Shown here piece after piece: positions 27,849 to 35,684 of a DNA stretch of 64,000 bases. Origin of the DNA: Iodidimonas sp. SYSU 1G8 (GTDB lineage: Bacteria; Pseudomonadota; Alphaproteobacteria; SMXS01). Position numbers and translations under genes: made by a program. The stretch's first letter is position 1. Each line of letters starts with the position of its first letter. The notes under the pieces are model-generated. The model made no database searches and was not told the DNA's origin. It saw nothing but the letters and a program-made list of their open reading frames with translations. The stretch lies in assembly GCF_039655775.1 (NCBI RefSeq), contig NZ_JBBYXJ010000002.1:682001-746000 (forward strand). Reading direction: 5' to 3'.

Positions 27849-28772
27849 ATGCAGGACCTGCCCCTCGAAACAGCCACCGATCTTGTCGGGCGCGCGCGCC
27901 GGTCCGGCGCCGCGGCGGAGGTCGTGAGCTTCTTCGACAAGGCGACCTTCACGGCCACTCATCTGGTGATCGACCCGGCCACGCGGCGCGCGGCCATCGT
28001 CGATTCGGTGCTGGATTACGACCCGAATTCGGGCAGGACCAGCACGGATTCGGCCGACGCGGTGATCCGCGCCGTGCGCGAGCGGGGGCTGACCATCGAC
28101 TGGCTGCTCGAGACCCATGCCCATGCCGACCATCTGTCGGCCGCGCCCTATCTGCAGGAAAAGCTGGGCGGCACGCTGGCGATCGGCCGGCACATCCTGA
28201 CCGTGCAGAACACATTCGGTAAAATCTTCAACGCCGGCACCGATTTCGCCCGCGACGGCTCGCAGTTCGACCGTCTGTTCGACGATGGCGAGACGTTCCG
28301 CATCGGCGAGATCGACGCCATCGCCCTGCATGTCCCGGGTCATACGCCGGCCGACATGGCCTATGTGGTGGGCGAGGCGGCATTCATCGGCGACACCCTG
28401 TTCATGCCAGATTATGGCACCGCGCGGGCCGATTTCCCCGGCGGCGACGCACGTGAGCTGTTTCGCTCGACCCGCCGCCTCCTGTCGCTGCCCGACGAGA
28501 CCCGCTTGTTCCTGTGCCACGACTACAAGGCGCCCAACCGCGAGGAATTCGTCTGGGAAACCACGGTGCGCGCGGAACGAGTCGGCAACGTGCACGTGCA
28601 TGAAGGCGTGAGCGAGGACGATTTCGTCGCCATGCGCACGGCCCGCGATGCCACGCTCGACATGCCCCGGCTGATCCTGCCCTCGGTGCAGGTCAACATG
28701 CGCGGCGGCCATCTGCCCGAGGCCGAGGACAATGGCGTGCGCTATCTCAAGATACCGCTCAACGTGATCTGA
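27849..28772 (+). CDS. MBL-fold persulfide dioxygenase (ETHE1/Blh-like)
   Basis: A 307-residue metallo-beta-lactamase-fold protein. The metal motif is LETHAHADHLSAAPYL (HxHxDH), with further ligands in VPGHTPADMAY, FIGDTLFMPDYG and FLCHDYK. This set is that of ETHE1-type dioxygenases, which use one Fe(II) to oxidise glutathione persulfide to sulfite. Its N-terminus and length are closer to the Blh proteins of sulfide detoxification operons. GGGAG precedes the ATG. It is followed by a DUF442 phosphatase-like sulfurtransferase and a sulfide:quinone oxidoreductase, forming one pathway. Confidence 0.92.
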   Translation: MQDLPLETATDLVGRARRSGAAAEVVSFFDKATFTATHLVIDPATRRAAIVDSVLDYDPNSGRTSTDSADAVIRAVRERGLTIDWLLETHAHADHLSAAPYLQEKLGGTLAIGRHILTVQNTFGKIFNAGTDFARDGSQFDRLFDDGETFRIGEIDAIALHVPGHTPADMAYVVGEAAFIGDTLFMPDYGTARADFPGGDARELFRSTRRLLSLPDETRLFLCHDYKAPNREEFVWETTVRAERVGNVHVHEGVSEDDFVAMRTARDATLDMPRLILPSVQVNMRGGHLPEAEDNGVRYLKIPLNVI

Positions 28773-28787
28773 AACAGGAGCCGCTCA

Positions 28788-29129
28788 ATGAACCTGAAGC
28801 CACTCTCGGCCGACTTCTCGGTCTCGCCCCAGCTCCGGCCCGAGGACCTGACAATCCTGGCGGGTCAGGGCGTTCGCGCCATCATCAACAATCGCCCCGA
28901 TGGCGAGGAAGCCGGACAGCCCGGCGATGCCGTGATGCGCGCGGCGGCGGAACAGGCCGGTCTCGCCTACGCCCATCTGCCCGTGACGCCGGGCCAACAG
29001 CCCGCGCCCGATCTGGTGGGGCGCTTTTCGGAAGTGCTGGGCACGCTGCCCGGCCCGGTGGTCGCCTATTGCCGCAGCGGCGCGCGTTCGGCGTCGCTCT
29101 GGACCCTGTCCCAAGCGGCGCGTTCATGA
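28788..29129 (+). CDS. DUF442 / TIGR01244-family sulfur transferase
   Basis: A 113-residue cysteine-based protein related to protein tyrosine phosphatases. The active loop is YCRSGARSASLW (CxxxxxR), and the early GVRAIINNRPDGEE is typical. In Blh fusion proteins this domain is joined to the dioxygenase; here the two are separate genes 15 bases apart. It probably carries or transfers sulfane sulfur between SQR and the dioxygenase. Its stop codon overlaps the ATG of the SQR gene. Confidence 0.9.
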   Translation: MNLKPLSADFSVSPQLRPEDLTILAGQGVRAIINNRPDGEEAGQPGDAVMRAAAEQAGLAYAHLPVTPGQQPAPDLVGRFSEVLGTLPGPVVAYCRSGARSASLWTLSQAARS

Positions 29130-30373
29130 ACGGCACGGAGCGGACCAGCCACGACATCGTCATCGTCGGCGGCGGCGCGGCCGGTATTTCGGTGGCGGCC
29201 AGCATTCTGCGCCGGCGCCCCCGCGCCGACATCGCCATCATCGAACCCTGCCAGACTCACTACTATCAGCCCGGCTGGACCCTAGTGGGCGGCGGCGTCT
29301 TCGATCTCGCGCAGACCAGCCGTCCCATGGCGGAGGTGATCCCGAAGGGTGCCCGTTGGCTGTGGCAGGCGGCGTCGAGCTTTCAGCCCAACCAGAATCT
29401 GGTGGTGCTCAATGACGGCAGGCGGATCGCCTACAAGGTGCTGATCGCCGCGCCGGGCATCGCCCTTGATTGGGATGCGATTCCGGGGCTGGCCGAAACC
29501 CTCGGCCGTAATGGCGTGACGTCCAACTATCACCGCGACCATGCGCCCTATACCTGGCAGCTGGTGCGACAGCTGGGCGACGGCGCGACCGCGCTGTTCA
29601 CCCAGCCGCCCATGCCGATCAAATGCGCCGGCGCGCCTCAGAAAGCCATGTACCTGTCCTGCGATCACTGGCGCCGCTCTGGCGTGCTGGACGGCATGAC
29701 CGTCGCGTTTCATACGGCGGGCGCGGTGCTGTTCGGGGTGAAGGACTACGTTCTGGCGCTCGAGGACTACATCGCGCGCTATGGCGTGCACCTGTGTCTC
29801 GAATCCCGTCTGATCGCGGTCGATGGGCCCGCGAGACAGGCAACATTCCTGGACAAGATGGCCGATGGCACGGCGGTCGAGCGCACCGTCGCCTTCGACA
29901 TGCTGCATGTCTGCCCGCCCCAGGTGGCACCGTCGTTCATTGCCCGCAGTCCGTTGGCGGATGCCGCCGGTTTCGTCGATGTGGATCAGGAAACCCTGCG
30001 GCATCGCCGCTTCGCCAACGTGTTCGGGCTGGGCGACGGCTGCAGCGCGCCCAACGCCAAGACGGCCGCGGCCGCGCGCAAGCAGGCGCCGGTCGTCGCG
30101 CTCAACGCTCTCGCCGTTCTCGACGGCCACGATCCGGACGCGATCTATGACGGCTATGGCTCGTGCCCGCTCACGGTCGAGCGGGGCCGGATCGTGCTGG
30201 CGGAATTCGGGTATGGCGGCAAGCTGATGCCGTCCTTCCCCCGCTGGTTCATCGACGGCACGCGCCCCAGCCGGCTGTCCTGGTTCCTCAAGGAAAAGCT
30301 GCTGCCGCCCATCTACTGGCACGCCATGCTGAAGGGCCGTGAATGGCTCGTGGCACCGGCGCGGCGGCGGTAG
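29126..30373 (+). CDS. sqr: Sulfide:quinone oxidoreductase (FAD-dependent)
   Basis: A 415-residue flavoprotein with an N-terminal dinucleotide fold (HDIVIVGGGAAGISVAASIL) and a late FAD motif (FANVFGLGDGCSAPNAKTAAAARKQ). Redox cysteines are likely those in PIKCAGAPQ and HVCPPQVAPS. The YQPGWTLVGGG block and the amphipathic C-terminus (PRWFIDGTRPSRLSWFLKEK) are those of membrane-bound, mitochondrial-SQOR-like enzymes. It oxidises sulfide to persulfide and passes electrons to ubiquinone. I start at 29126, the ATGA overlap with the DUF442 gene. Earlier in-frame starts lie inside that gene. Confidence 0.9.
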   Translation: MNGTERTSHDIVIVGGGAAGISVAASILRRRPRADIAIIEPCQTHYYQPGWTLVGGGVFDLAQTSRPMAEVIPKGARWLWQAASSFQPNQNLVVLNDGRRIAYKVLIAAPGIALDWDAIPGLAETLGRNGVTSNYHRDHAPYTWQLVRQLGDGATALFTQPPMPIKCAGAPQKAMYLSCDHWRRSGVLDGMTVAFHTAGAVLFGVKDYVLALEDYIARYGVHLCLESRLIAVDGPARQATFLDKMADGTAVERTVAFDMLHVCPPQVAPSFIARSPLADAAGFVDVDQETLRHRRFANVFGLGDGCSAPNAKTAAAARKQAPVVALNALAVLDGHDPDAIYDGYGSCPLTVERGRIVLAEFGYGGKLMPSFPRWFIDGTRPSRLSWFLKEKLLPPIYWHAMLKGREWLVAPARRR

Positions 30374-30646: not shown

Positions 30647-30889
30647 ATGGCCGACATGATGAAAGACGACTTGCAGGAGATCGCCCGCGAAGTGTGCCGG
30701 GCGGCCTATCGTGAAATGAAGGCGCGCGGCATTTCGGAAGTCGCGACCGCTGGCGCCTTCCTGCAGTACAGCGCCAGTGGCCTCGCCCAGCTCGGCATGG
30801 ATCGGGAAGATATCCACGACATCGTCGACGGTGTGATCGACCGCACCATCGAGATGTCGCCCATTTCGGTTCCAGCCGGCCGGGCCTAG
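30647..30889 (+). CDS. Small orphan protein of 80 residues
   Basis: A short, mostly helical, acidic protein (DDLQEIAREVCRAAYREMKA at residues 6-25) with one cysteine and a Pro-rich tail. Codon use looks genuine and a GAGGA-like site lies upstream of ATG 30647, although spacing is loose. No known domain was recognised. It lies 84 bases before the ECF sigma gene but is separated from it by a sigma-type promoter, so it is probably transcribed separately. Confidence 0.55.
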   Translation: MADMMKDDLQEIAREVCRAAYREMKARGISEVATAGAFLQYSASGLAQLGMDREDIHDIVDGVIDRTIEMSPISVPAGRA

Positions 30890-30908: not shown

Positions 30909-30935
30909 TGTAACCTCGGGCCATTCCCGGGCGAA
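30909..30935 (+). promoter_or_regulatory. SigF-type ECF promoter before the sigma/NrsF operon
   Basis: TGTAACC (30909-30915), 16 bases, CGAA (30932-30935) equals the GTAACC-N16-CGAA consensus I recall for Caulobacter SigF. It lies directly upstream of an ECF sigma gene paired with an NrsF-type anti-sigma factor, so it is most likely an autoregulatory promoter. Transcription would begin near 30942, which excludes the ATG at 30935 as the translation start. Confidence 0.7.
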
Positions 30936-30973
30936 TGGAGATGACAGCGGAAGCGCCGCTGGAGGAATGGGGA

Positions 30974-31657
30974 ATGAGCTTGACCTTTGCCGTCGCAGGC
31001 GTTGACCTGAACGTCCCGGAACGAGGCGAAACCGCCTCTCGGGCGACAGGGGCGCCGCGGGTGGATGAGGCGAGACAGGAAGTGGCGCGCGCCGCCGACG
31101 CGCGGCGCGCGGGTCTGATGGCCGCGGCGCAGGCTGGTGATCGCGGCGCTTATGAGGCCCTGCTGCGCGAGTGCCTGCCCGTGGTGGCCATGATCGCGCG
31201 CGGGCGCGGTGTGCCGCCCGACAGCATCGACGACGTGGTGCAGGAAACCCTGGTCACCCTGCACCGCGCCCGGCATACCTATGATCCCTCGCGGTCCTTC
31301 ATGGCCTGGTTGCGGACCATCGCCGACCGGCGGGCGATCGACGCGCTGCGCGGCCAGGGCCGGCGCCGCGCGCGCGAGGTCCACGATCCTGTCGCCTATG
31401 ACGCCCACGTCGATCCCACGCCAGATGCCGTCCAAACCGTTGATCGGCATGACGAGGACCGGCGCCTGCGCGCGGCGATCGTCACGCTGCCGGAGGGCCA
31501 GCGCGAGGCGGTGGAACAACTGTCGCTGCACGGGCGGTCGCTGACGGAAGCGTCGGCGGTGACCGGGCGGACCACGGGCGCGCTGAAGGTAAATCTGCAC
31601 CGTGCCTTGCGCAGCTTGCAGGCCCGGCTGAAGGGCGAGGAACAGCGGCATGACTGA
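30974..31657 (+). CDS. ECF RNA polymerase sigma factor (SigF/NrsF type)
   Basis: A 227-residue sigma-70-family factor with region 2 (DSIDDVVQETLVTLHRARHTYDPSRSFMAWLRTIADRRAIDALR, about 80-125) and region 4 (about 168-220, LPEGQREAVEQLSLHGRSLTEAS). I start at 30974 because GGAGG sits 8 bases upstream; an in-frame ATG at 30935 has no such site and precedes the predicted transcription start. The first 40 residues are a poorly conserved extension. It overlaps the downstream anti-sigma gene by eight bases. In Caulobacter the comparable SigF responds to heavy-metal stress. Confidence 0.9.
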   Translation: MSLTFAVAGVDLNVPERGETASRATGAPRVDEARQEVARAADARRAGLMAAAQAGDRGAYEALLRECLPVVAMIARGRGVPPDSIDDVVQETLVTLHRARHTYDPSRSFMAWLRTIADRRAIDALRGQGRRRAREVHDPVAYDAHVDPTPDAVQTVDRHDEDRRLRAAIVTLPEGQREAVEQLSLHGRSLTEASAVTGRTTGALKVNLHRALRSLQARLKGEEQRHD

Positions 31658-32300
31658 CCCGTCCGAACATGATCGGCTGCTGCGTGAGCTGGGCGCCGAC
31701 CTGACGCCGGTCAGGCGGCTGCGCGCGCCTGGCCTGCGTGCCCTGGGCTGGTTCTCGGTTGTGCTCGCCATCGCCGCCGTTCTCGCGATGGTCGCCGACG
31801 GGGCGGCCACGCTGGCGCGGCTGGCCGCCGTTCCGGATTTGTGGCTGAGTGCCTTGGGCTCGGCGTCCACCGCCGTGCTGGCGGGCTGGGCCGCGTTCGA
31901 GCTTTCGACGCCGGGAAGCCGCCGCCGCTGGGCGCTGCTGCCCGTGCCGGCATTTGTGCTCTGGATCGGGGCCAGCGGGCTGGGATGCCTGCGCGTGTGG
32001 CCTGCGCCGGGGACCGGTCCGATGGCGCACGGTGAATCCGGCGAGTGCCTGATGTTCATTGTCGGCCTGTCGCTGCCGCTGGCGATCCTGATCACCATTA
32101 TGCTGCGCCGCGCCTGGCCGCTGCATCCCGCGCTGACAGCAGGCGTCGCCGGCCTTGCCTGCGCCGCCGCCGCGGCCACCCTGCTGAACTTCGTCCATCC
32201 GTTCGACGCGGCGGCCACCGATCTCGCCCTGCATGCGCTCGGCGTGGCGATCGTCGTCGCGGCCACGGCCCTTTGGGGCAGGCGACCCCTGACCCGTTGA
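31650..32300 (+). CDS. NrsF-family (DUF1109) membrane anti-sigma factor
   Basis: A 216-residue protein with six membrane helices after a cytosolic start that reads LLRELGADLTPVRRLRAPGLR, the DUF1109/NrsF signature. It should hold the sigma factor at the membrane. Three cysteines are at 113, 133 and 171; NrsF senses metal through conserved cysteines near such positions, so 113 or 133 with 171 may do so here. Overlap with the sigma gene fits a fixed stoichiometry. Confidence 0.88.
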   Translation: MTDPSEHDRLLRELGADLTPVRRLRAPGLRALGWFSVVLAIAAVLAMVADGAATLARLAAVPDLWLSALGSASTAVLAGWAAFELSTPGSRRRWALLPVPAFVLWIGASGLGCLRVWPAPGTGPMAHGESGECLMFIVGLSLPLAILITIMLRRAWPLHPALTAGVAGLACAAAAATLLNFVHPFDAAATDLALHALGVAIVVAATALWGRRPLTR

Positions 32301-32441: not shown

Positions 32442-32978
32442 ATGGCCGGCCGCGCCGATGACACGCTCGAAATTCACGAGACCCTCTACCGCTATTGCCG
32501 TTCCATGGACCGGATGGATGCGCCGCTGTCGCTGGACTGTTTCTGGCCCGACGCCCATCTGGAATACAGCAGCCTGTTCAACGGCTCGGCCGCCGGGTTC
32601 GTCGAATGGCTCTGGCCGGTGCATGCGTCCATGGTGTGCCACACGCACCGGGTGACCAATATCCTTGTCGATTTCAAGGGCGCGGACGATGCCGCCAGCG
32701 AGGCCATGGTTCACGTGACGCTGCGCATGAACGACAAGGGCGAGCTGGTCGACCTCGTCGGCCATGGCCGCTATCTTGACCGCTGGCAACGCCGTGACGG
32801 GCGCTGGCGTATTTCAGGCCGGACCTACGTCACCGACCTCGGCACCGTGGTCCCGGTCGCCAGTCGCGATCTTAGCGGCATCCTCTATCCGGGCACGCCC
32901 GGCCAGCGCCCACTGCAGGGTACGCGGGACACCAGTGACCTGTCCTATGCCCTTTTGCCACCCATCGGGAGTGAGTGA
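32442..32978 (+). CDS. NTF2/SnoaL-like domain protein
   Basis: A 178-residue cone-shaped alpha+beta protein of the SnoaL-like group (bile-acid 7-alpha dehydratase type). Its early ETLYRYCRSMDRMDAPLSLDCFWPDA and later GHGRYLDRWQRRDGRWRISGR are the helix and sheet hallmarks. The family includes dehydratases, isomerases and non-enzymes. ATG 32442 has GGGGAG 7 bases before it, while earlier in-frame starts lack a site. It is two bases from an LLM oxidoreductase gene, so the two probably act in one catabolic or steroid-like pathway. Confidence 0.8.
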   Translation: MAGRADDTLEIHETLYRYCRSMDRMDAPLSLDCFWPDAHLEYSSLFNGSAAGFVEWLWPVHASMVCHTHRVTNILVDFKGADDAASEAMVHVTLRMNDKGELVDLVGHGRYLDRWQRRDGRWRISGRTYVTDLGTVVPVASRDLSGILYPGTPGQRPLQGTRDTSDLSYALLPPIGSE

Positions 32979-32980
32979 CC

Positions 32981-33862
32981 ATGAAGATCGGCGTCGTTTA
33001 TCCGCAAACCGAATTGCAGGGCGATCCCGACGCGGTGCGCGAGATCGGCCTGGCGACCGAGGCGCTGGGCTACAATCATCTGCTGGTGTTCGATCATGTG
33101 GTCGGTGCGTCCCACGACCGCGAACCCAAGCTGTGGGGACCTTATACCGAGCTTCATCCCTTTCATGATCCGTTCGTGATGTTCGGGTTTTTGGCCGGCA
33201 TCACCAAGCGCATCGAGTTAGCGACGGGGGTCCTGATCCTGCCGCAGCGCCAGACCGTGCTGGTTGCCCAGCAGGCCGCCGACGTGGACCTGCTGTCCCA
33301 CCAGCGGCTGCGCCTGGGGATCGGGACCGGCTGGAACTATGTGGAATATCACGCGCTGGGGCAGGATTTCGAGACCCGCGGCGCCCGCGCCGACGAGCAG
33401 ATTCCCTTCCTGCGCCGGCTCTGGAGCGAGCCTCTCGTTACGTTCGAGGGGCGCTTCGACCGTATCGACAAGGGCAATATCCTGCCGCGTCCCAAGCGCC
33501 AGATCCCGATCTGGGTCGGCGGCTTCACCGAACCGGCATTCCGGCGCGGCGGGCGGCTGGGCGACGGTTACATCTTCGCCGGCGATATCGATCATGCGCG
33601 GGAAGGACTGGCACGGGTCCGGCATCATCTGGCTGAGTCCGGTCGCAGCGAGGAAGGGTTCGGTCTCGATCTGGTGCTGATCCGCGCCAGGGATGTGGAC
33701 GAGACCATCGACACGCTGAATCGCTGGCGCGATCTGGGGGGCACCCACGCGACCGTCCACACCATGGGCAAGGGCTTCACCACCGCGCAGGCGCATATCG
33801 ACTTCATGGCCGAGGTGCGCCATCGGATCGATGCCGGTCAGACAACGCCTATGGTCGTGTGA
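32981..33862 (+). CDS. LLM-class flavin oxidoreductase, F420-type (TIGR03619-like)
   Basis: A 293-residue luciferase-like TIM-barrel protein: GLATEALGYNHLLVFDHVVG, ELATGVLILPQRQTVLVAQQ and LRLGIGTGWNYVEY are typical. Cofactor may be F420 or FMN. The ATG at 32981 follows GGGAGTGAG. Together with the NTF2-like gene it makes a two-gene unit. Its 3' end overlaps the convergent ASST-like gene by 14 bases. It is a second LLM enzyme in this window, distantly similar to the one at 17.3-18.1 kb. Confidence 0.88.
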   Translation: MKIGVVYPQTELQGDPDAVREIGLATEALGYNHLLVFDHVVGASHDREPKLWGPYTELHPFHDPFVMFGFLAGITKRIELATGVLILPQRQTVLVAQQAADVDLLSHQRLRLGIGTGWNYVEYHALGQDFETRGARADEQIPFLRRLWSEPLVTFEGRFDRIDKGNILPRPKRQIPIWVGGFTEPAFRRGGRLGDGYIFAGDIDHAREGLARVRHHLAESGRSEEGFGLDLVLIRARDVDETIDTLNRWRDLGGTHATVHTMGKGFTTAQAHIDFMAEVRHRIDAGQTTPMVV

Positions 33863-35350: not shown

Positions 35351-35402
35351 TCGAGATCAGGTCTTGTCTCGACGCATACGGAGAAAACTGAAAGGAAGAA
35401 TC

Positions 35403-35684
35403 ATGAATTCATCGGAAAATGATGACAAATCAATTCCAGTGAGCTCGAGTCCCTGGGCACGGCGTGCCTTGATAGGTGTGGTGGCGGCCGGTGTTCTGGG
35501 GCTGGCCGCATGCAGCGGGCATGGCGGCTATGGCCACGGCCATGGGTATTACCGCGATGGCTATCATCATGGCGGCTATCACAAGGATCGGCATGATCGG
35601 TACGACCGCCATGACCGGTATGACCGCAGTGGCTACCGTGACCGCGATCGCCGCGACGGGCGCGGTTACTGGCGCCGCGATTGA
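35403..35684 (+). CDS. Small His/Gly/Tyr/Arg-rich lipoprotein
   Basis: A 93-residue protein. Its twin-basic start and hydrophobic core (ARRALIGVVAAGVLGLAAC) end in a lipobox LAAC, so Cys36 is probably lipidated. The rest is low-complexity: GHGGYGHGHGYYRDGYHHGG, then repeated HDRYD units and an Arg/Asp tail. His clusters could bind metal. I start at ATG 35403 with AAAGGAAG before it; the N-terminal 18 residues ahead of the hydrophobic part are longer than usual. A stress-type promoter lies upstream. Confidence 0.7.
   Translation: MNSSENDDKSIPVSSSPWARRALIGVVAAGVLGLAACSGHGGYGHGHGYYRDGYHHGGYHKDRHDRYDRHDRYDRSGYRDRDRRDGRGYWRRD

Follow-up and report, generated by a model that had tools for sequence, protein, structure and literature searches.

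The closest described relatives of the system analysed here are ECF sigma factors of group 16 (ECF16) paired with anti-sigma factors of the NrsF/DUF1109 family. In Caulobacter, Kohler et al. (2012; PMC3511200) found that SigF controls sigF-nrsF, two DUF2282-DUF692-DUF2063 operons and YedY, that cysteine substitutions in NrsF release SigF, and that metal stress brings about no strong autoregulation of sigF itself. Copper induces the same regulon (sigF-nrsF, the DUF2282-DUF692 operons, DoxX and MsrPQ), and mutation of sigF makes the cells copper-sensitive (PMC8224329). In OsrA, the Bradyrhizobium anti-sigma factor, C129 is needed to hold the sigma factor and C179 is needed for the response to H2O2 (PMC3420878). 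The signals to which these relatives answer are Cr, Cd and Cu in Caulobacter, H2O2 in Bradyrhizobium and HOCl in Brucella, while RpoE7 of S. meliloti, a member of the same group, is described as responding to neither H2O2, Cd nor chromate. In Brucella, a protein of the MXKDX type, encoded upstream of the ECF16 sigma gene, contributes to HOCl resistance (PMC8315932). Periplasmic copper is bound by bufferins, and Buf1 clusters are known to have sigma and NrsF genes in their neighbourhood (PMC12452194).

The locus reported here lies in a stretch of 64,000 nucleotides of Iodidimonas sp. SYSU 1G8, hereafter the window. Its features are the following:

30909-30935, + strand: SigF/ECF16-type promoter, TGTAACC (-35), 16-nt spacer, CGAA (-10); exact match
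30961-30965, + strand: Shine-Dalgarno-like GGAGG, 8 nt before ATG 30974; read from the sequence
30974-31657, + strand: sigF-like ECF sigma factor, 227 aa (Pfam Sigma70_r2, Sigma70_r4_2)
31650-32300, + strand: nrsF-like six-helix membrane anti-sigma factor, 216 aa (PF06532); overlaps the sigF stop codon
31986-31988, + strand: Cys113 codon, outer end of helix 3; mark of the C113 subfamily
32046-32048, + strand: Cys133 codon, outer end of helix 4; equivalent to Caulobacter C131 and OsrA C129
32196-32198, + strand: His183 codon, in the place of OsrA C179 and Caulobacter C181 by alignment

A preliminary description of this DNA had reported TGTAACC-N16-CGAA directly before an ECF sigma gene, and the match is indeed exact: GTAACC occupies 30910-30915 and CGAA 30932-30935, with a spacer of 16 nt, no mismatch and a T in front, and the element ends 38 nt upstream of ATG 30974. 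A scan of the whole window revealed no second exact GTAACC-N16-CGAA site. The consensus given in that description agrees with those published, GTAACC-N16-CGAA for Caulobacter (PMC3511200) and tGTAACc-N16-CGAA for group 16 (PMC3420878). If the 6-bp distance found in Bradyrhizobium ecfF applies, transcription of sigF is expected to start at about 30941-30942. An alternative ATG begins at 30935. It coincides there with the final base of the -10 element and would therefore lie outside the transcript. The earlier choice of 30974 over 30935 is sustained by this overlap, by the GGAGG at 30961-30965 and by a parallel correction in Bradyrhizobium, where the same start-codon conflict over ecfF is reported to have been settled by a transcription start mapped 6 bp past the -10 box (PMC3420878). 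Since the sigF orthologues of the same genus likewise have an N-terminal stretch ahead of region 2, the start at 30974 is reasonable, although not proven.

The sigma factor carries regions 2 and 4 only, as is proper to the ECF16/SigF-NrsF group: Sigma70_r2 (PF04542) covers residues 63-131 (E 8.7e-16), with 62 residues preceding it, and Sigma70_r4_2 (PF08281) covers residues 163-215 (E 2.6e-8). It is 60% identical to two orthologues from the genus, and among the NCBIfam matches listed the general ECF superfamily model alone exceeds its cut-off. The adjacent gene encodes an NrsF/DUF1109 anti-sigma factor with six predicted membrane helices, which matches PF06532 with 82 bits against a cut-off of 26.8; no NCBIfam model names NrsF here. 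The Pfam matches of both genes thus bear out the order of ECF sigma gene and DUF1109/NrsF gene first described. There is only one copy of NrsF in the source genome.

The scan for GTAACC-N16-CGAA proposed in the preliminary description, carried out on the whole genome, yielded two exact copies, one before sigF and one before bufA. The second lies on the minus strand at 1363563-1363538 of contig C2, 63 nt before the bufA ATG, so that a promoter of the tGTAACc-N16-CGAA type is found both before a predicted target operon and before the sigma gene itself. The bufABCD genes form a compact four-gene operon of DUF2282, DUF692 (PF05114, 346 bits), DUF2063 and DoxX, all above the Pfam cut-offs; it lies on the same contig about 650 kb from sigF-nrsF, to which the shared promoter is its only link, and it is the one DUF2282 operon found in this genome. 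A near-exact element, TGTAACC-N16-CGTA, with CGTA instead of CGAA, stands 33 nt before msrP. MsrP scores 478 bits in NCBIfam against a cut-off of 207 and MsrQ 170.6 bits against 130, and the end of msrP overlaps msrQ. Judged from sequence alone, the genome thus holds the regulon known from Caulobacter, DUF2282-DUF692-DUF2063-DoxX together with MsrPQ, and this supports a wiring of sigF to bufABCD and msrPQ. That none of the usual SigF targets is adjacent, as had been remarked, is true locally, but such operons exist elsewhere in the genome; the conclusion drawn from it, that the regulon could differ, is unsupported because the targets are present though unlinked, with exact or near-exact promoters before bufABCD and msrPQ, which are target types of Caulobacter SigF.

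A search for NrsF in 143 genomes found it in 27, the source genome included. Within the genus it is present in G001, G002, G003, G005 and G006 and was not found in G004 (78% complete). In all five NrsF-bearing relatives, two genes stand ahead of sigF-nrsF: one for a cytochrome b561 (the G003 copy matches PF01292) and yedY1, which encodes a YedY-like molybdoenzyme (PF00174). A GTAACC-N16-CGAA site stands before the cytochrome gene (with N17 in G001), back to back with another before msrA-msrB, exact in four of the five and with one mismatch in G002; judged by eye from their N-termini, these Msr proteins look exported. This cytochrome b561-yedY1/msrAB block is absent from the source genome. The promoter of sigF lies there 20 nt past a small conserved gene (30647-30889, + strand), which encodes an 80-residue protein with no Pfam or NCBIfam match and which, sitting beyond and next to msrB in G003 and G006, marks the edge of the absent block. 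The source genome also has one MsrA as against two to four in the sister species. Its msrP stands apart and has a site to itself, whereas the second PF00174 protein of the sisters is encoded next to sigF. DUF2282 and DUF692 were found in the source genome, G001 and G002, and in the latter two an exact promoter copy lies directly upstream of bufA as well; neither domain was found in G003, G005 or G006 (84% complete). Taken together, the six NrsF-bearing genomes of the genus contain 30 exact sites against 18 for the backwards control, and 12 of the 30 precede sigF or its cytochrome gene, msrA or bufA. The regulon would vary within the genus: two relatives combine a bufferin arm with a methionine-repair arm linked to sigF, three show the sigF-linked repair arm only, and in the source genome the bufferin arm is accompanied by an msrPQ that is not linked to sigF.

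Several neighbouring genes deserve mention in their own right. Upstream of sigF, 27849-30373 (+) encodes in a row a persulfide-dioxygenase-like MBL protein, a separate sulfur-transferase (TIGR01244) and an SQR-like flavoprotein, which probably form a sulfide-oxidation module. No exact SigF site precedes these genes and the window has no further one, so they were set aside as SigF targets. After nrsF, 32442-33862 (+) encodes a SnoaL-like protein and a luciferase-like oxidoreductase; both genes follow nrsF in G001, G002 and G003, and the oxidoreductase gene also in G005, while neither was seen after nrsF in the frame list of G006. In G006, the gene that comes directly after nrsF encodes a pentapeptide MXKDX repeat protein (L125:3868-4245, minus strand; TIGR02953, 48.8 bits, cut-off 41), and a one-mismatch promoter site lies between the two genes. 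Further downstream in the window, 35364-35684 (+) encodes a small, His/Tyr/Asp-rich protein, secreted or lipoprotein-like and with no Pfam match; the corresponding region of G005 encodes a small protein that resembles it by eye.

The reading that we prefer, at a probability of about 0.7, is that of an autoregulated, ECF16-like SigF-NrsF circuit, most likely triggered by copper, which drives its own operon, bufABCD and msrPQ. NrsF, a six-helix protein of the inner membrane, would hold SigF inactive at the membrane. Periplasmic thiophilic stress, most likely excess copper and perhaps oxidants, would act on cysteines at the outer face, presumably C133 together with C113, to which we assign by inference the place of the missing C179/C181. 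SigF, freed from NrsF (its binding and release and the signal being themselves predicted), would then transcribe sigF-nrsF, bufABCD, for a periplasmic copper-chelating peptide and its maturation enzymes, and msrPQ, for periplasmic methionine sulfoxide repair. We put copper first, since the exact site that lies apart from the sigF operon belongs to an operon for a copper chelator and since the Caulobacter system is copper-responsive.

The preliminary description had held the circuit to be probably metal-sensing, which finds support in the response of the Caulobacter relative to Cr, Cd and Cu; against it, other relatives are reported to answer H2O2 or HOCl, and RpoE7 does not answer Cd or chromate. 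Metal sensing by the window circuit is plausible by analogy, and oxidant sensing would fit too. Oxidants are indeed a serious rival, because the sister species couple the same sigma factor to methionine sulfoxide repair and because of the MXKDX-repeat gene of G006. In this alternative the circuit is the same, its natural signal is reactive chlorine or oxygen acting through the oxidation of methionine or thiols, and metals act only indirectly. The arrangement in all five NrsF-bearing relatives, where sigF follows the cytochrome b561 and YedY-like oxidoreductase genes back to back with msrA-msrB, speaks for oxidants no less than for metals; the MXKDX-repeat protein after nrsF in G006 has a kindred protein in Brucella that contributes to HOCl resistance; ECF16 systems of Bradyrhizobium respond to H2O2; and msrPQ is a predicted target here. 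That the msrP site reads CGTA and that the cysteine required for the H2O2 response of OsrA is absent also count against our preferred account as it stands. The same missing cysteine, however, weighs against an oxidant signal as well, as do the absence of the yedY1/msrAB block from this genome and the fact that the exact copy outside the sigF operon serves the copper-chelating bufferin operon. On balance, we consider an oxidant as the natural signal possible but on the unlikely side.

The copper-triggered circuit that we favour differs from the described ones mainly in its anti-sigma factor. The NrsF cysteines are at 113, 133 and 171 exactly as first described, but they do not make up the canonical sensing set, for only C133 aligns with a canonical cysteine: His183 stands in the place of C179/C181, to which C171, located within helix 5, does not correspond. 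With the first cysteine of the two-cysteine NrsF/OsrA subfamily (C129/C179) present as C133 and the second absent, the protein is not placed in that subfamily. An AlphaFold model of the window NrsF (mean pLDDT 91.9, pTM 0.87; 89.1 for the model of a C179-type NrsF) has six long helices, and its charged loops fit an N-in/C-in topology with C113, C133 and His183 at the outer ends of helices 3, 4 and 5. In the PDB, Foldseek found nothing below E 0.7 and hmmsearch nothing at E 1, and searches of the open-licence literature in PubMed Central brought up no description of the C113 type.

How common this type is was gauged from 107 aligned NrsF proteins. Of the 31 matches of the genome search, 28 were kept, one having no locus and two (L060 and L061) lying below the Pfam cut-off. 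The other 79 came from named relatives, retrieved by a search with an alignment of sigma factors because a single-protein scan of genome contigs with NrsF had found no relative; this search used a C113-type query, and the best 80 of at least 359 confirmed stretches were retained, NrsF directly following the sigma stretch in 79 of these 80 loci (L199 has no NrsF match). The 107 include at least two near-duplicates (L179 with G002, L254 with G046). Alignment A2 contains the window protein and 35 of the 40 named C113-type proteins (L180, L182, L186, L195 and L227 were left out), and A3 holds 22 named C179-type proteins and L246. The position of C133 is a cysteine in all 107. C113 occurs in 56 and the C179 cysteine in 30, the two never together, while 26 have "CH", a cysteine one place before the histidine (12 of them with C113 also), and seven have none of the three. 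Position 183 is histidine in 55 of the 56 C113-type proteins and arginine in L227. The mutual avoidance of C113 and C179 gives 3.6e-13 in Fisher's test, a value that is not corrected for kinship and that draws in part on named proteins retrieved by a C113-type query.

A tree of the sigma factors, in which NrsF was not used, covers 102 of the 107 rows, five unnamed loci having no extracted sigma; in L253, L182 and L196 a stop within the stretch was set to X. All C113 and CH rows fall into one branch of 69 rows (support 97 by a quick method), together with two rows that have none of the three cysteines, and all 29 C179 rows fall outside it, their own support being 77, so that they are not shown to be one clade. 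Each label requires four changes on the tree. Because of this split, the exclusivity of C113 and C179 is mainly that of one deep division, and the sigma factor of the window, set apart from the C179-type sigmas, is called ECF16-like. By its sequence, the window NrsF belongs to a large C113 clade. The descriptions consulted place the NrsF/OsrA sensor at C129/C179; 70 of the 107 proteins keep the first cysteine and have the second elsewhere (56 with C113 and 14 with CH alone), a share that is not a census since it was a C113-type query that retrieved the named proteins. The cysteine pattern offers a direct test of which residues sense what.

It is conceivable, though we hold it doubtful, that the sensing site of this subfamily has been remodelled, with Cys113, Cys133 and His183 together making a Cys2His site that takes up Cu(I) or some other thiophilic ion. 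One sigma regulon would then be run by two sensor chemistries, and two inputs would converge on a single promoter class in G013 (L036, L063) and G103 (L037, L062), each of which has one C113-type and one C179-type NrsF. The neighbour of the C113-type locus of G013 is a DUF2282 bufferin operon. Ten loci with both C113 and CH (L181, L183, L185, L186, L188, L189, L191, L194, L195 and L236) come from Dyella, Rhodanobacter, Frateuria and one MAG; their fetched flanks contain an msrB-like gene in nine of the ten and bufferin genes in none. The 14 CH loci that lack C113, among L204-L240 (Enterobacterales, Duganella, Novosphingobium and kin), possibly use another promoter class.

The place of the window sigma in a clade apart from the C179-type sigmas would also allow the bufA and msrP sites to be read by another sigma factor, or to be relics, and two members of the same family, G007 and G009, encode a DUF692 enzyme but no NrsF, so that bufferin-type genes can exist without the circuit. 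This is improbable, given that the genome has a single NrsF and that the element precedes sigF here, as well as sigF or bufA at many C113-type loci. The survey behind this last point covered the 350 bases ahead of the matched sigma stretch and the first 30 bases of that stretch. In the best-80 set, the coding strand of the C113-type loci carries an exact copy in 14 of 40, or 17 of 40 at one mismatch or less, while the backwards pattern and the 380 bases after the sigma stretch each gave 0 of 40; the opposite strand carries the element in 9 of 40, as divergent promoters would give. Among the C179-type loci of that set, 1 of 22 has an exact copy and 7 of 22 one within a single mismatch, rhizobial members often having GTAACA or GTAACG, and CGTA; none of the 14 CH loci has GTAACC-N16-CGAA within one mismatch before sigma. 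Where a bufA-like gene lies in the fetched flanks (23 loci), the best site is exact with N16 in six and with N15 in one, and has one mismatch in seven, two in six and three in three, a count without a control. In the genome-search set, where 420-1500 bases upstream of nrsF were covered, 3 of 30 have an exact N16 copy and one more has an N15 copy, the five same-genus sites lying beyond the range scanned. The exact element is therefore not universal even within the C113 type. Its presence before sigF both here and in a good part of the relatives makes autoregulation, as first suggested, likely on sequence grounds.

The bare pattern, by contrast, is not rare but occurs at background frequency. 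The 3.92-Mb genome has two exact copies of GTAACC-N16-CGAA against four of the backwards pattern, and the case therefore rests on position: both copies lie directly before the sigF operon and the bufferin operon, in the correct orientation. With one mismatch allowed there are 148 matches against 151 in the backwards control, so that such scans are useless for finding targets. TGTAACC-N15-17-CGWA gives seven matches (control, five). Two of these belong to sigF and msrP; the remaining five fall within open frames or antisense to them, or face no start. Widening to TGTAAC gives 12 (control, 21); one of the five sites added, L261, precedes the start of a gene that is UDP-sugar-epimerase-like by eye, and was treated as chance. 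The bufA site, which has a C in front, falls outside both lists. That the match before sigF is itself due to chance, as this background frequency would permit, is scarcely credible when both exact copies in the genome stand before sigF and bufA and the count in C113-type relatives of the best-80 set is 14 of 40 against 0 of 40 backwards.

The circuit is thus mostly ordinary, a known copper/oxidant response in another lineage, and its differing part is the position of the second cysteine. The SigF-NrsF system (ECF16) of Caulobacter crescentus shares with it the GTAACC-N16-CGAA promoter, the sigF-nrsF operon and targets of the DUF2282-DUF692-DUF2063-DoxX and MsrPQ types. It has, however, the cysteine pair C131/C181, where the window NrsF has no equivalent of C181 (His183) and has C113; it has two DUF2282 operons against the one found here; and one of these adjoins sigF, by the gene numbers CC3252-CC3257, whereas bufABCD and msrPQ are unlinked here. 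EcfF-OsrA of Bradyrhizobium japonicum is alike in its group 16 sigma factor, its six-helix DUF1109 anti-sigma factor and the promoter before its own gene (PMC3420878), but OsrA has the C179 that the window NrsF lacks, the consensus given is GTAAC(g,a)-N14-15-(c,t)CG(t,a), unlike that found here, and the regulon includes three methionine sulfoxide reductases. BcrS of Brucella melitensis (B0022/B0023) is again an ECF16 sigma factor with an NrsF-family anti-sigma factor; it differs in having the canonical cysteines C129/C179, a linked BcrXQP with a methionine-rich repeat protein, and a role in HOCl resistance (PMC8315932). The Buf1 clusters, finally, share the core of DUF2282, DUF692, DUF2063 and DoxX with bufABCD, and they are known with sigma and NrsF neighbours (PMC12452194), while the sigma/NrsF pair is not adjacent here.
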